NCBI GenBank assembly: GCA_003142575.1
Contig: PLMS01000140.1
Coordinates: forward strand, 26,286-67,282
DNA from: Ignavibacteriota bacterium
GTDB taxonomy: Bacteria > Bacteroidota > Ignavibacteria > UBA10030
DNA: 40,997 nt
Direction: 5' to 3'
Shown: in pieces, positions 2,212 through 30,215 of the stretch
Layout of the letters: each line of letters starts with the position of its first letter
Position numbering within the stretch: position 1 is the stretch's first letter
Position numbers and translations under genes: made by a program
The notes under the pieces: model-generated
What the model was told of the DNA's origin: nothing
Database searches by the model: none
Seen by the model: only the letters and a program-made list of their open reading frames with translations

Positions 2212-3027
2212 TTAACTCAAGAAACCTTCAACACGATGCACTTTACCAAGTGTTGTACCGAGAAATCGTTCGCCTATCTCCGCAAACTTATGCGGTACAT
2301 CGCTTACGAAGAACTGTAAGTTGGGTTTCATTATGCTCGTATTTTCTAAATGTAATTCTGTCAGCATGTTCTTCACAATGACAGCGGTGGCTTCTCCGGA
2401 ATCAATCAGCATGACGTCGTTGTGCAGCACCTTATTGATGACTTTCCGCAAGATGGGATAATGCGTGCATCCAAGCACGAGCGTATCAATTTTCTCAAGA
2501 GTCAAAGGAAACAAATATTCCTTAGCGATCAATTCTGTCGCCTTATGGTCGGTCCAGCCTTCTTCAGCAAGAGGGACAAAAAGTGGACATGGTTGTCCGA
2601 ATACTTTGATTGCTGGATTGAGCTGGCGAATGGCATTTGTATAGGCGTTACTAAAAATCGTGCCCAATGTTCCAATGACACCAATCCGTTTCTTTTTTGA
2701 AGCCAGGACAGCTGCATCTGCTCCCGGAAGGATCACGCCAACCACCGGTATCTTCGCACGTTTCTGCACAATATCAAGCGCAACTGCAGAAACTGTGTTA
2801 CATGCGATGACGATGAGTTTGACATCATGTTGAAGCAGGACATCGGTATCTTGCAATGCATACTCGCGCACGACCTGCGGCGATTTTGGGCCGTAGGGAA
2901 CGCGCGCGGTGTCGCCAAAGTACACAATGTTTTCATGCGGCAAGTGCTGCATGAGTGCACGCACGACGGTCATGCCGCCAATGCCGGAATCAAATACACC
3001 GATGGGTTGTGCGTTATTCATGGTCAT
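2212..3027 (-). CDS. murI: Glutamate racemase
   Basis: Interconverts L- and D-glutamate in the cytoplasm, supplying D-Glu for peptidoglycan. The 271 residues are normal for the family. The N-terminal signature IGVFDSGIGGMTV contains the conserved Asp13-Ser14. The two catalytic cysteines sit in IACNTVSA (Cys76) and LGCTHYP (near residue 187), and FGDTARVPYG is the usual substrate-loop motif. The ATG at 3025-3027 directly abuts the glnD stop codon (3028-3030), so the two are probably co-transcribed and perhaps translationally coupled. A second in-frame ATG two codons in is an equally possible start, because no clear ribosome site distinguishes them. Confidence 0.96.
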   Translation of the reverse strand: MTMNNAQPIGVFDSGIGGMTVVRALMQHLPHENIVYFGDTARVPYGPKSPQVVREYALQDTDVLLQHDVKLIVIACNTVSAVALDIVQKRAKIPVVGVILPGADAAVLASKKKRIGVIGTLGTIFSNAYTNAIRQLNPAIKVFGQPCPLFVPLAEEGWTDHKATELIAKEYLFPLTLEKIDTLVLGCTHYPILRKVINKVLHNDVMLIDSGEATAVIVKNMLTELHLENTSIMKPNLQFFVSDVPHKFAEIGERFLGTTLGKVHRVEGFLS

Positions 3028-5670
3028 TTAAGTTGTTGTTGATGGTACGAGTTCCGATTTAGATAGACTTCGAATGGTTGTGAGAATTTCTTGTTTCGCT
3101 TGCTCTCTTCGCTCCGGATTGTCAAGTTTCTTTCCGTCGTTATCCAGCAAATAGAACGAATCAACAATACCGTCGACGCGTGTGGAAATCTTTGCGAATG
3201 TAATATTGAGCCCAAGTCGTGATATCGTTTCTGTGAGACGATAGAGAAAGCCAAGTGTATCCGGTGCATAGACATCAATAATGGTGAACTTTGGATGATC
3301 CTCAAACTCCACATCGCAACGAACATTCAAATTCATGGGCTGAGTGCGGCGTTTCCATCGCATTCGGTGGCGCTCAATCAACTTTGAAATTTCAACACGG
3401 CCTTCTGAAACTTCTTTAATATTGTGAGAGATTCGCTCGCACAGTTCTTCCGAAAGAGGAATGTGCGAGACAAATTCCACTACCCGAAACTTGTCTATGA
3501 CGATACCATCGCGCCGGGTGAAAACCTGCGCATCAAAAATATTTGCATCATTTGCTGTCAGTACACCGCAAAACTTGGAAAGCACACCTGGAGAATCGCG
3601 GGAGATAAATGTAACATCAGTGAAACTGTTGGATTGCTGAAAAAGCACTGTGACCTGATCATGTGTACGGATTATCTGAAGATGTTCAGCAATCTCTTCC
3701 GGTTTGAACGTTGCAAGGTACGAGGTGTCTGAGAAGAGTGCAAGGTGTGTGTCTACTTCTTCAGGAGGGAATTCCGGAATAAGGCTCCGAAGAATATCGG
3801 CACGCGTCGCTTCTGCTTGTTGCACGGAGCGTTCGTGAACCTGCTCGCTTGTCATCTGTTCTTCTAAGATATTCCGAGTTTTTCGATATAATTCCCATAG
3901 AAGAAGTTCTTTCCATTCTGTCCAGACGTTCTTATTCACTGCTGAAAGATCGGCATAGGTCAATACATATAAATAATCGAGTTGTTCTATGCGTTCGAAC
4001 ATGTGTGCGAAATCGATAATGGTTTGCGGATCGTTGAGGTTGCGCCGGAATGCGATCTGTTCCATGAGAAGATGATGACGGACAAGGAATGAAACGTCAT
4101 CGATGAGATCGTCGTACATAATACGTTGGAGAAATCGCCGGGCAATCGGTATTCCCTTGATTTCATGTTTTCCAAGGAGGGAGGGCTTTGCAATATCATG
4201 AAACAAACATGCAAGATACAATGTGTCTCTTCGAGGCAGGGAACGGAACACGTTCCCAAAAGAGGAAGATGACTGTTCGAGTGCTTCAGCATTGGCGAGA
4301 ACAATCAATGTGTGTTCATCGGCAGTATAAAAATGGTATTGGTTATGCTGGAAGAATGATACCATCGGTTTCCATTCCGGTATCCATCGTTCGAGTAATC
4401 CAAGATCATTCATTTTGTGAAGTGCATTGGCTACGCCATTCGGTCGATGGAGAAGAAGCCGGAAGAGATTCGTTTCTGTTTGTGTCTTCAAAGGTCTCAG
4501 GGAATGCAATCGTCTATGAATAGCATCTTCTAATGCGTAAGAAAATTCCACACGCCGTTCGCTTCTCAGCAAGAACGCGTTGAGGAGAATTTCATTGGTG
4601 ATATGTATGTTGCGTTGTGCACAATGAATGCGTCCATCACGAAGAATAAATGTGCTGCCGATCTTGGTTGTTTTTGTCTTTGAGTCTTTAGTAGGCCACC
4701 GGTGGTTTGCCCAATCAAGGATCCGTGAGCAGAAGAGAGCTACTGTCTTCGATGCAATATAATAGTCCTGCATAAAACGATCGACTTGCGTTCTTTTCGA
4801 CTTCGCCCGATAGCGCAGATGCGAAGCAATGCGCGGCTGAAGACCAAATTCAAGTGTATCGTGGAGTGCTTTGGATTGGAGATGCATCTCGTTGCGTACC
4901 CGGAGGAGAGTATCAAAGGCAATTCGTGACTCTGTGAGAAACGATGAAGTGAATTGTTGTTTGACAATCGGTGACTTAAGAAGATGGAGGATCGCCGTTT
5001 CTGTTGAACGAAGAGTTTTTGGAAGCGGGATCGCACCAGTTCCTCGCATCATCCAAAGTGCAGAATGAATATCGCGTAAACCTCCTGCGCTGTTTTTGAT
5101 ATTTGGTTCCAGCAATTTTGAGGAACTTCCATATTTCCTATGGCGAGCGTACTGCATCTCAGACACTCTCTGTACAAAAGCAACACGATCTTCTTCTTGA
5201 ATTCTTTGTTTCAATACAGTCTGGAGTTTGGTGAATGTCTCTTGATCACCACAAACATAGCGTGCTTCAATGAGTGACATCCACGACTCTATATCTTCTC
5301 CCGCGAGTGCGATGCATTCATGTGTCGTGCGAAAACTGTGACCGACATCAAGGCCAATGTCCAAAAGTTGATGGAGAAATTTCTGTACAGCGGGTGTGGT
5401 ATTATCTCGGAAGAGTTCATCAGCGATAAGAAACATGACATCGGTATCAGAGGAAAAACAAAGTTCTTTTCTGCCGTATCCTCCCAAAGCAACGACTGTC
5501 AAATATTTCGAATCGTTCTCGAGATGCCGGTAGATCGTTTGGAGAAGTGTATCAAGTCGTTGTGTCAGCGCAAGTGCAACTCGAATTCCTCCGGCGCCGG
5601 CACGGTGCAGTTGGAGAATAGCCTGAGTGCTTTTTTCGTATTTTTTTTTAAGGTGCTGCAGTATTATCAT
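3028..5670 (-). CDS. glnD: Bifunctional [protein-PII] uridylyltransferase / uridylyl-removing enzyme
   Basis: Senses glutamine and adds or removes UMP on PII proteins (GlnB/GlnK), controlling nitrogen assimilation. The 880-residue length fits the family. Domains in order: nucleotidyltransferase with GGYGRKELCFSSDTD around residues 65-80; a GlnD PII-UTase region, including NSAGGLRDIHSALW; an HD hydrolase domain with LACLFHDIAKP and VRHHLL in the middle third (uridylyl-removing activity); and two C-terminal ACT domains (SPGVLSKFCGVL and DTLGFLYRLTETISRLG) that bind glutamine. Both catalytic signatures look intact. It lies 30 bp downstream of the outer-membrane protein gene and abuts murI, all on the minus strand, so a shared transcript is likely. 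No PII gene is in view. Confidence 0.94.
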   Translation of the reverse strand: MIILQHLKKKYEKSTQAILQLHRAGAGGIRVALALTQRLDTLLQTIYRHLENDSKYLTVVALGGYGRKELCFSSDTDVMFLIADELFRDNTTPAVQKFLHQLLDIGLDVGHSFRTTHECIALAGEDIESWMSLIEARYVCGDQETFTKLQTVLKQRIQEEDRVAFVQRVSEMQYARHRKYGSSSKLLEPNIKNSAGGLRDIHSALWMMRGTGAIPLPKTLRSTETAILHLLKSPIVKQQFTSSFLTESRIAFDTLLRVRNEMHLQSKALHDTLEFGLQPRIASHLRYRAKSKRTQVDRFMQDYYIASKTVALFCSRILDWANHRWPTKDSKTKTTKIGSTFILRDGRIHCAQRNIHITNEILLNAFLLRSERRVEFSYALEDAIHRRLHSLRPLKTQTETNLFRLLLHRPNGVANALHKMNDLGLLERWIPEWKPMVSFFQHNQYHFYTADEHTLIVLANAEALEQSSSSFGNVFRSLPRRDTLYLACLFHDIAKPSLLGKHEIKGIPIARRFLQRIMYDDLIDDVSFLVRHHLLMEQIAFRRNLNDPQTIIDFAHMFERIEQLDYLYVLTYADLSAVNKNVWTEWKELLLWELYRKTRNILEEQMTSEQVHERSVQQAEATRADILRSLIPEFPPEEVDTHLALFSDTSYLATFKPEEIAEHLQIIRTHDQVTVLFQQSNSFTDVTFISRDSPGVLSKFCGVLTANDANIFDAQVFTRRDGIVIDKFRVVEFVSHIPLSEELCERISHNIKEVSEGRVEISKLIERHRMRWKRRTQPMNLNVRCDVEFEDHPKFTIIDVYAPDTLGFLYRLTETISRLGLNITFAKISTRVDGIVDSFYLLDNDGKKLDNPERREQAKQEILTTIRSLSKSELVPSTTT

Positions 5671-28397: not shown

Positions 28398-28895
28398 TTT
28401 TTATCAATACATGGGGAATACATACGACAGATTTTCTGTGAAGAAAGCAGAGCTTTCACGAGATAGCCGCTCATTCTGCAGAACCGGCATTCCCTCCTCC
28501 TGCTGCTGTCGGCGGAAAAGTAAAATCAGACCGCCTATAGTCCCCCTCGCACATGAGGGGGACAGTTTGAAGCGTTCTATTTGCATTTGATTCATCCTGG
28601 TGAGATACTCGATGATTTCACATATATGGAATGAATTTAGCTATCTCACGGGATAAAGATGAATCTTTCCAAATGGTGGGACGCACAGTTGTGCGTCCCT
28701 ACAAATCTCTTCTTTTTATCTTGCCCTCCCATCGGGAAACATGTATATTATAGCAGCAAAAATCTCAACTCTCTGATTAGTACCATTGGGGGACCGCCAA
28801 TGACAGTTCTTGAGAAATCAAATGTAATATTAAACACAGAGTCTATATTTCACGCTTATAAGCGCAAAAGATAGACTAAGTCTATCTAATCAGTA
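28398..28895. other. Non-coding spacer with hairpins between pckG and the cassette array
   Basis: I see no supportable gene. It contains two perfect hairpins (28541-28548 with 28555-28562, TCCCCCTC/GAGGGGGA; 28678-28687 with 28690-28699, GGGACGCACA/TGTGCGTCCC) and an 8-bp hairpin AGATAGAC-TAA-GTCTATCT at 28869-28887. The last ends 9 bases before the first cassette junction. Short ORFs here lack ribosome sites and run through the palindromes. No integrase gene or attI-like site is recognisable. Confidence 0.55.
28678..28699. repeat. Perfect 10-bp palindrome, REP-like
   Basis: GGGACGCACA-GT-TGTGCGTCCC folds into a 10-bp stem with a minimal 2-base centre. It resembles dispersed intergenic palindromes, but only one copy is in view. 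Confidence 0.5.
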
Positions 28896-28939
28896 GTTAT
28901 GTCGCTTGTCTTTTTAGAGGATTGGATATAAACTAATTT

Positions 28940-29854
28940 ATGATTAGTCGAAGAACTGCAAAATCTTTAGCAGAGCTCGTCGTGGTGAATTTTCGTAAGT
29001 ACCATTATTTACGAAATTCAGGGAACGGCTATTTTACAGTCGATATAGAAAAGATTTACGATTTTCTTTTTGAAAATGATTACCCAGCTTGGCTCTGTAA
29101 TGCTATTAAAAAAACTTGGACTTCCACAGAAACCCGTCAACTTAAAGAATTCGTAATGAAACTTCATACTGGTGAAAGTCAATTAGATGCTACACAAAAT
29201 TGGTCTTGGGAACAAAGAGAGAAACTCGGTCAGAGTTATCTAAAAGAGTTGTCTGAAGATATGCTAAATTATTATTCTGCCAATCCACCTTCAGGATATA
29301 GTTCAGAGAGTTTAGTCTCAATGATTCAATTCTTACGGGAAAACCTCGAACTTGACGGGCACATTTATAAAGATCATCGGTTACTATATTCAGAATCAGA
29401 TGTACTAGAAACCACCGAAGAAATGGGAATACTTCAATCACTCTATGTGAGTCTTGAACTTGGCGGTAAAGATACTGCATTTCATCACCTTAAACTTTCT
29501 GAGGAACACTATCTTGAACATCGTTGGGATGATTCAATTTCGAATTCCCGAAAATTTCTTGAATGTGTTTTACGTGAAATAGCTGTCTTGTTCAGCCAAA
29601 AGGTTAAGAATGTTAGCTTACCGGAATCTGTTTATTCTAGGCCATTACAAATTCGTGAATATCTTTCTAAAGAGGGACTTCTCGAAGTGAAGGAGAAAGA
29701 GGCCGTCGCATCTGTTTATGGTCTATTAAGTGAGACTGGAAGTCATCCATATATGGCACAAAATGAGCAAGCTCGATTATTGCGACATCTATCGCTTACT
29801 TTTTCACAATTTGTAATGCTTAGATTGCAAGGGCATCTGTCTCAAAAGAATTGA
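28940..29854 (+). CDS. Unknown helical protein in first cassette, C-terminal domain resembles HEPN/Abi-like modules
   Basis: 304 residues, predicted largely helical, with no signal peptide or membrane segment. I do not recognise the N-terminal half. The C-terminal half (about 175-295) has YLEHRWDDSISNSRKFLE, a helix with LREIAVLF, and GLLSETGSHPYMAQNEQARL followed by a long helix. This layout recalls C-terminal domains of abortive-infection and HEPN-type proteins, but a clear RxxxxH catalytic motif is not visible (RLLRH is the nearest), so this is only a suggestion. AT-richer than the housekeeping genes. It is the only protein gene of a cassette that also carries a tRNA-like gene 27 bp downstream. 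Confidence 0.6.
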   Translation: MISRRTAKSLAELVVVNFRKYHYLRNSGNGYFTVDIEKIYDFLFENDYPAWLCNAIKKTWTSTETRQLKEFVMKLHTGESQLDATQNWSWEQREKLGQSYLKELSEDMLNYYSANPPSGYSSESLVSMIQFLRENLELDGHIYKDHRLLYSESDVLETTEEMGILQSLYVSLELGGKDTAFHHLKLSEEHYLEHRWDDSISNSRKFLECVLREIAVLFSQKVKNVSLPESVYSRPLQIREYLSKEGLLEVKEKEAVASVYGLLSETGSHPYMAQNEQARLLRHLSLTFSQFVMLRLQGHLSQKN

Positions 29855-29881
29855 GAATATTTTTTTTTGAAGTGTTAAATT

Positions 29882-29968
29882 GGAGGGGTGCGGTGTTGGT
29901 AGCCGCAAGACGTCTGAAAAACGTTTGATCGGTGTTCCCGATTCGGGGGTTCGATTCCCCCTCCCTTT
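29882..29968 (+). tRNA. Class II tRNA-like gene, anticodon loop CTGAAAA (GAA), unusual or degenerate acceptor
   Basis: Reads as a tRNA with a long variable arm. D-stem GCGG/CCGC (29890-29893, 29903-29906) encloses GTTGGTAG. Anticodon stem GACGT/ACGTT (29909-29913, 29921-29925, extendable by one A-T) has loop CTGAAAA with GAA at 29916-29918. Variable arm ATCGG/CCGAT (29928-29932, 29938-29942). T-arm GGGGG/CCCCC around TTCGATT (29945-29961). The acceptor GGAGGGG pairs with TCCCTTT only with three G-U pairs. It would pair perfectly with CCCCTCC at 29958-29964, as if 4-5 bases of C-run were lost between T-stem and acceptor. No CCA, and a T-tract follows. A GAA anticodon (Phe) with a class II arm is not standard. 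The start GGAGGGGT and loop CTG(T)AAA recall tRNA-Tyr. Confidence 0.6.
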
Positions 29969-30017
29969 TTTATTTTTGAAGCATGTCTCTAGATATGTAT
30001 ATAATCAAAGACAAGCG

Positions 30018-30215
30018 GCATAACCAGCAACTCAAGCTCGGCTTGTCCAGATAACTGAATCGCGCGAAGCGCGATACTAATTACAAATGAGCTTGGTACG
30101 TTAAGCATGGCGCTCAGAGGCGTAATGCAAGATTGGAAATTATCAGAATGAACTTGGTTCGTTTACAGCAACTTGCGGGTTATCGTTGCCGCAGCTCAGT
30201 TGCCATCCGTTAGGG
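30018..30215 (+). other. attC1, long (198 bp)
   Basis: R'' GCATAAC (30018-30024) to R' GTTAGGG (30209-30215). Contains the shared module 30033-30092 (CAAGCTCGGCTTGTCCAG ... AATGAGC) with an inner CGCGC/GCGCG palindrome. Closes the tRNA-like cassette. The 15 bases GACAAGCGGCATAAC (30010-30024) are complementary, with one wobble, to the cassette's first 15 at 28896-28910. Confidence 0.8.

Follow-up and report, generated by a model that had tools for sequence, protein, structure and literature searches.

What does a tRNA-like gene that joins a long variable arm to a phenylalanine anticodon do inside an integron cassette? An initial annotation of the 40,997-nucleotide stretch of Ignavibacteriota DNA analysed here (the window) raised this question by describing a class II tRNA-like gene within such a cassette, and both parts of that description are borne out: ARAGORN calls the gene, and the cassette is delimited by complementarity between its head and its attC. 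The cassette spans positions 28897-30209 of the forward strand. Its head, GTTATGTCGCTTGTCTTT (28896-28913), is complementary to AAAGACAAGCGGCATAAC (30007-30024) over 18 positions, one of them a G-U pair, so that the excised circle would carry one long attC hairpin. The locus thus has both complementary R and L boxes and a head that pairs with its own attC. The attC itself (30007-30215, +) is about 200 nt long, with R'' at 30018-30024 and R' at 30209-30215, and an attC-like site lies on the upstream side of the cassette (28762-28902, +; CTGATTAG at 28773, CTAATCAG at 28886). More R'-like motifs follow downstream. tRNA genes as integron cassette cargo are not described in the literature that we searched, most subscription papers being outside that search.

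Within the cassette, an ORF of 304 amino acids (28940-29854, +) is followed by the tRNA-like gene and then by the attC. The ORF product is an orphan of no confident family: Pfam, PADLOC, PHROGs and NCBIfam returned no family above cut-off, no relatives were found in plasmids, phages or viral contigs, and the phylum sample contained only the protein itself and one match at the E = 0.001 limit. Reading the function of the tRNA-like gene from this neighbour was abandoned because the ORF is an orphan, and a single-sequence fold of its product (pLDDT 37) was not used. The same genome carries two intact integron integrase genes on other contigs (G000:C29:2821-3762 and C56:1603-2544) and R'-like motifs on several further contigs. 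A promoter-like TTGAAG-18-TATAAT lies between the tRNA-like gene and the attC (29976-30005) and is directed into the next cassette. The tRNA-like gene is also flanked by a direct repeat, TTTTTGAAG (29864-29872 and 29973-29981), which about 2% of shuffled flanks equal.

The only tRNA gene that ARAGORN detected in the window is this tRNA-Phe(GAA) at 29882-29969 (+). It scored 114.9, inside the span of 114.4-124.4 set by the genome's working tRNAs; two tRNA-like remnants at other loci of this genome reached 100.8 and 104.9. No tRNA match was obtained from 10.2 Mb of dinucleotide-shuffled window, which rules out a chance origin. The cloverleaf has D, anticodon and T arms with their conserved loop features (GG in the D loop, U33, a TTCGA T loop). 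As originally described, a long variable arm accompanies the anticodon loop CTGAAAA: the anticodon arm GACGT-CTGAAAA-ACGTT occupies 29909-29925, with GAA at 29916-29918, and the variable arm GATCGG-TGTTC-CCGATT occupies 29927-29943, with one nucleotide (C) left before the T stem. The T arm GGGGG-TTCGATT-CCCCC continues straight into TCC, the shortened 3' strand of the acceptor (together 29945-29964). The D loop counts 9 nt, A14 is absent and CCA is not encoded. A run of six T directly adjoins the element (29966-29971) and may serve as a transcription end; scans gave no clear separate terminator and no clear promoter just upstream. Searches with blastn returned no homologues in relatives, phages or plasmids, and no second cassette copy was found in relatives, leaving a single known cassette copy. 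Since the host already has an ordinary tRNA-Phe(GAA) together with the four serine isoacceptors TGA, GGA, CGA and a partly masked GCT, the cassette element is dispensable for decoding.

From which tRNA does this gene derive? An Rfam scan of the element gave no family reaching its gathering score, the best match being tRNA-Sec (RF01852; 42.1 bits, E 5.5e-7, gathering threshold 47). Ordinary tRNA-Ser genes of the same genome reach 45.7 and 44.4 bits with this model, so the match reflects a serine-like body, and a tRNA-Sec identity was rejected on the score and on the lack of a UCA anticodon. A model built from the element retrieved only tRNA-Ser genes among its top 29 loci in 391 genomes of the class. 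As this set is biased by the origin of the model, the comparison was repeated on an unbiased set of class II tRNAs drawn from whole genomes (the element's own genome, G031, G053 and G077). Against these profiles the element scored 16.1 bits for Ser, 7.0 for Leu and 3.2 for Tyr, and the six closest sequences were all tRNA-Ser. Its variable stem of six pairs, with one nucleotide before the T stem, follows the serine pattern; Leu tRNAs mostly have two nucleotides there and Tyr tRNAs three. The suggestion that the gene is a decayed tRNA-Tyr is not upheld by these data. tRNA-Phe is class I, with a short variable loop and A73, while the element has a 17-nt variable arm and U73; Leu, Tyr or Phe ancestry runs against the isotype scores. 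On these sequence comparisons the body is serine-type, not Tyr, Leu or Phe.

The anticodon is not a serine one (NGA or GCU); the loop CTGAAAA differs from the Ser GGA loop CTGGAAA by a single change, G35A. Like bacterial tRNA-Ser, the element has a 5' acceptor strand of the GGRRGGG type, UG at positions 8-9, the six-pair variable stem with its single following nucleotide, a TTCGAWT T loop and C48. Unlike bacterial tRNA-Ser it has the GAA anticodon, a short 3' acceptor strand, G1-U72, G2-U71 and U73 in the canonical register, no A14 and a D loop of 9 rather than 11 nt. Across the 26 stem pairs shared with the nearest tRNA-Ser (L067), 16 are identical, four have changed on one side and six on both, and none is broken. 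An equal number of random changes would be expected to break about 10.6 of the 26, indicating that the body retained its cloverleaf while diverging.

The acceptor end is odd. The 5' strand GGAGGGG (29882-29888) pairs perfectly with CCCCTCC (29958-29964), which overlaps the 3' strand of the T stem (29957-29961) so that four of its bases also belong to the T stem. Thus, as the initial annotation held, a perfect acceptor requires sharing the C-run of the T stem. A weaker canonical 7/5 reading of the 12-bp acceptor/T branch also exists (GGAGGGG/UCCCUUU), which is reached only through three G-U pairs and has a predicted probability of 0.07. The branch falls some four nucleotides short of that in a normal tRNA. 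One explanation is that a decaying tRNA-Ser was caught by chance in a cassette, its short end the result of slippage that recently removed 4 nt from a C-run, and any likeness to phage genes coincidental. Contraction of C9 to C5 would account for the end, and the single copy without relatives, the T-rich 3' end and the short D loop fit such a history, but a decaying gene with some 30% stem divergence would hardly leave all 26 pairs unbroken. The odd end looked like decay until phage contigs carrying the same shortened end came to light.

These contigs emerged from two complementary searches of viral sequences. The first asked for a serine-type body with a CTGAAAA loop and left the 3' end unconstrained; it retrieved L135, L136 and L137 (L135 and L137 are identical), all of them short-ended. 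The second worked in the opposite direction, leaving the anticodon free and asking for GGAAGGGTG with a T arm resembling the short end; it contributed L142 (GAA) and L141 (GAU), and the sixth sequence it retrieved, L143, is an ordinary tRNA-Ser. In this anticodon-blind search the distinct short-ended matches thus bore GAA three times and GAU once. Third and fourth scans gave, as other matches, only ordinary Ser and Tyr tRNAs. Four distinct phage contigs therefore hold serine-type tRNA-like genes with the same shortened end, three with GAA and one with GAU. The matches L143-L157 that fall outside this group proved to be ordinary Ser or Tyr tRNAs, which were used as controls; the pattern matches L059, L061 and L062 are not tRNAs.

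All four phage copies are stand-alone genes of temperate phages and have the shared acceptor/T strand: L137 (2309-2394, -), L142 (5137-5222, +), L141 (1124-1209, -) and L136 (4374-4459, -). In L137 and L142 the gene sits on the opposite strand between the genes for the terminase large subunit and the portal protein. The gap that holds it measures about 200 nt, against about 15-20 nt in four related phages, which lack the insertion. The L141 gene precedes HNH and terminase genes and that of L136 precedes a DNA invertase gene. Just upstream of every copy, on the same strand, lies a promoter-like site with 10 of its 12 positions matched. Downstream, L137, L142 and L136 have a strong separate terminator hairpin, and L141 a weaker scan match. 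Judged from these predicted sites, the layout is that of accessory genes that would be expressed in the prophage state. The nearest relatives of the phage terminases are found in phages of Firmicutes.

The window and phage genes were aligned as five distinct sequences (86 nt, one gap). Each of the five anticodon-stem pairs varies on both sides, with every cell still paired, and the variable and T stems are 100% paired. The covariation score was 0.671, compared with 0.228 for shuffles and at most 0.195 for slid controls. The initial annotation had looked to homologues for covariation in the acceptor and variable arms; this holds for the variable arm, but in the phages the canonical acceptor loses its outer pairs, 1-72 and 2-71 being unpaired in 4/4 members. 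The shared register is 97% paired. Perfect 7/7 pairing of the 5' strand with the shared T-stem strand is seen in five of five members versus none of the 187 ordinary tRNAs collected. In predicted folds the shared acceptor dominates in four of the five (0.71-0.99; 0.19 in L137), and the canonical acceptor has a probability of 0-0.07 in all five versus 0.99 in an ordinary Ser control. On the strength of the phage sequences, the odd acceptor end is not merely decay: the GAA anticodon and the shared acceptor, each of them rare, are found together again in phages.

Whether the window copy truly belongs with the phage genes is less clear. It shares their serine-type body, GAA or GAU anticodon and 7/7 pairing with the T-stem strand, but lacks the promoter-like site found close upstream in 4/4 phage members. 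It is the most divergent of the five, with a differing D arm, and on a covariance model of the five members it scores 81.4 bits, below the ordinary tRNA-Ser genes L145 (87.3) and L154 (83.1), so that sequence alone does not establish its membership. These same points (the lower model score, the differing D arm, the lack of a clear promoter) leave room for chance decay of the window copy, a reading that we weigh as unlikely against the intact stems and the recurrence in phages. The window copy and the phage genes may be linked by descent or by convergence.

The phage copies also bear on whether the element is simply the terminator of the preceding gene, or an RNA-processing signal of the cassette ORF built from a tRNA remnant. 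The element starts 27 nt after the ORF stop, the T run lies directly 3' and a terminator scan matched 29945-29971. However, 4 nt separate the T-arm stem from the T run, and a terminator has no need of the anticodon and variable arms of a tRNA, whose stems covary. Moreover, each phage copy comes with a promoter-like site of its own, and in three of them a strong terminator lies apart from the element. A role as nothing but a terminator is therefore very improbable, though the T run may still end transcription.

The reading that we favour, with a probability of roughly 0.45, is that of a non-translating tRNA mimic or decoy travelling as mobile cargo, since the group keeps the parts seen by tRNA-binding proteins and loses the acceptor end. 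A mimic or decoy carried as cassette cargo had been among the options first proposed, and the sequence evidence supports it as a possible reading. The gene would encode a small RNA derived from tRNA-Ser, its anticodon having turned to GAA, one step (G35A) from the serine anticodon GGA. Such an RNA would retain the anticodon arm, variable arm and elbow and would have lost the normal 3' acceptor end, offering a phenylalanine-type anticodon arm on a serine-type body to proteins or RNA that recognise tRNAs. Candidate partners include anticodon nucleases, tRNA-modifying enzymes and a synthetase, for which it might act as decoy or regulator. On this view the window copy would be expressed in its host, stay off the ribosome, act as a decoy and share its ancestry with the phage genes. 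More tentatively, and with some doubt, an undescribed RNA family derived from tRNA-Ser may travel on temperate phages and integrons; its members would be expressed independently, bear Phe or Ile anticodons and a short acceptor kept by selection, and serve outside translation to decoy factors that target tRNAs. A recurring phage RNA with serine body, phenylalanine anticodon and short acceptor is not described in the literature searched. Should they prove to be decoys, these RNAs would amount to a counter-defence or immunity factor made of RNA alone; should they be charged, they would count as natural mistranslators.

The latter case is the main functional rival: a working missense suppressor, charged by SerRS through the long variable arm, that inserts serine at the phenylalanine codons UUU and UUC. 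Serine identity lies mainly in the variable arm and the anticodon is ignored (PMC9976931), and a human tRNA-Ser carrying G35A (anticodon AAA) puts serine at phenylalanine codons (PMC9956149). The ARAGORN score is like that of a real tRNA and the canonical 7/5 acceptor can pair through three G-U pairs. However, G1-C72, G2-C71 and G73, which are important for tRNA-Ser (PMC9976931) and typical of the bacterial ones, are replaced here by G-U, G-U and U; CCA is not encoded and A14 is missing; the phage look-alikes wholly lack pairs 1-72 and 2-71; and Phe-to-Ser mistranslation would carry a high cost. The recoding tRNA that the initial annotation had considered thus survives as an option but without the usual serine identity elements at its acceptor end, and we consider it quite unlikely.

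A long shot is that these RNAs compete for T-box-type RNA switches that sense tRNAs, binding through the Phe or Ile anticodon without a proper 3' end. T-boxes are not known to be common in Bacteroidota, to which the host of the window belongs, but the phages that carry the look-alikes are related to Firmicutes phages. In B. cereus, the pseudo-tRNA tRNA-Other, acting outside translation, affects a T-box gene (PMC3399842). This tRNA-like RNA is tied to mobile DNA, poorly aminoacylated and absent from polysomes, with an extra-translational role (PMC3399842), and we propose, by analogy, that the mimic or decoy considered here works most like it. Both are tRNA-like RNAs on mobile DNA, with extra-translational action a proposal in the case of our element; unlike it, tRNA-Other has a Trp anticodon, is part of a longer transcript and is not described as serine-type with a shared acceptor/T strand.

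Other known systems share some features with the element. Allo-tRNAs and selC* tRNA-Cys likewise have a long variable arm, and non-serine anticodons on serine-type bodies (PMC7609411), but their 12-bp branch is arranged as 8/4 or 9/3 (Mukai et al. 2017, reviewed in PMC7609411), while in the element it is either 7/5, G-U pairs included, or runs to about 8 bp through the shared strand. An 8/4 or 9/3 arrangement was rejected, as the eighth pair in that register would be U x C. The element is thus not an allo-tRNA under the 8/4 or 9/3 definition, nor is it tRNA-Sec, tRNA-Phe or tRNA-Tyr. Phage tRNAs needed for lysogeny are also single tRNA genes carried as accessory cargo by temperate phages; unlike the element group, they replace a host tRNA broken by integration and must function (PMC10865867). 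Class II tRNA-Phe(GAA) genes in large phage tRNA arrays (L052:129-214, L054:4040-4125 and L056:3992-4077) combine GAA with a longer variable region, but their variable-arm geometry differs, with three nucleotides between variable and T stems, and they have an intact acceptor of their own type, no serine-type body and no shared strand.

A Leu-like class II gene with a GAA anticodon and a poorly paired acceptor was also seen in Tenacibaculum (L060:1461-1552, and L138 in genome G181). Within the genome of the window, the other odd tRNA matches are either fragments at contig ends or loci away from integrons. Among the latter are two tRNA-like sequences, one Gly ACC and one Leu-like, both poorly paired (L032:2745-2815 and 2984-3051, G000:C26). 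A further tRNA-like copy (L037:1731-1820; G000:C124:12230) lies about 350 nt after a tRNA-Leu(CAA) with which it has its 3' half in common, and is probably an attachment-site duplication.
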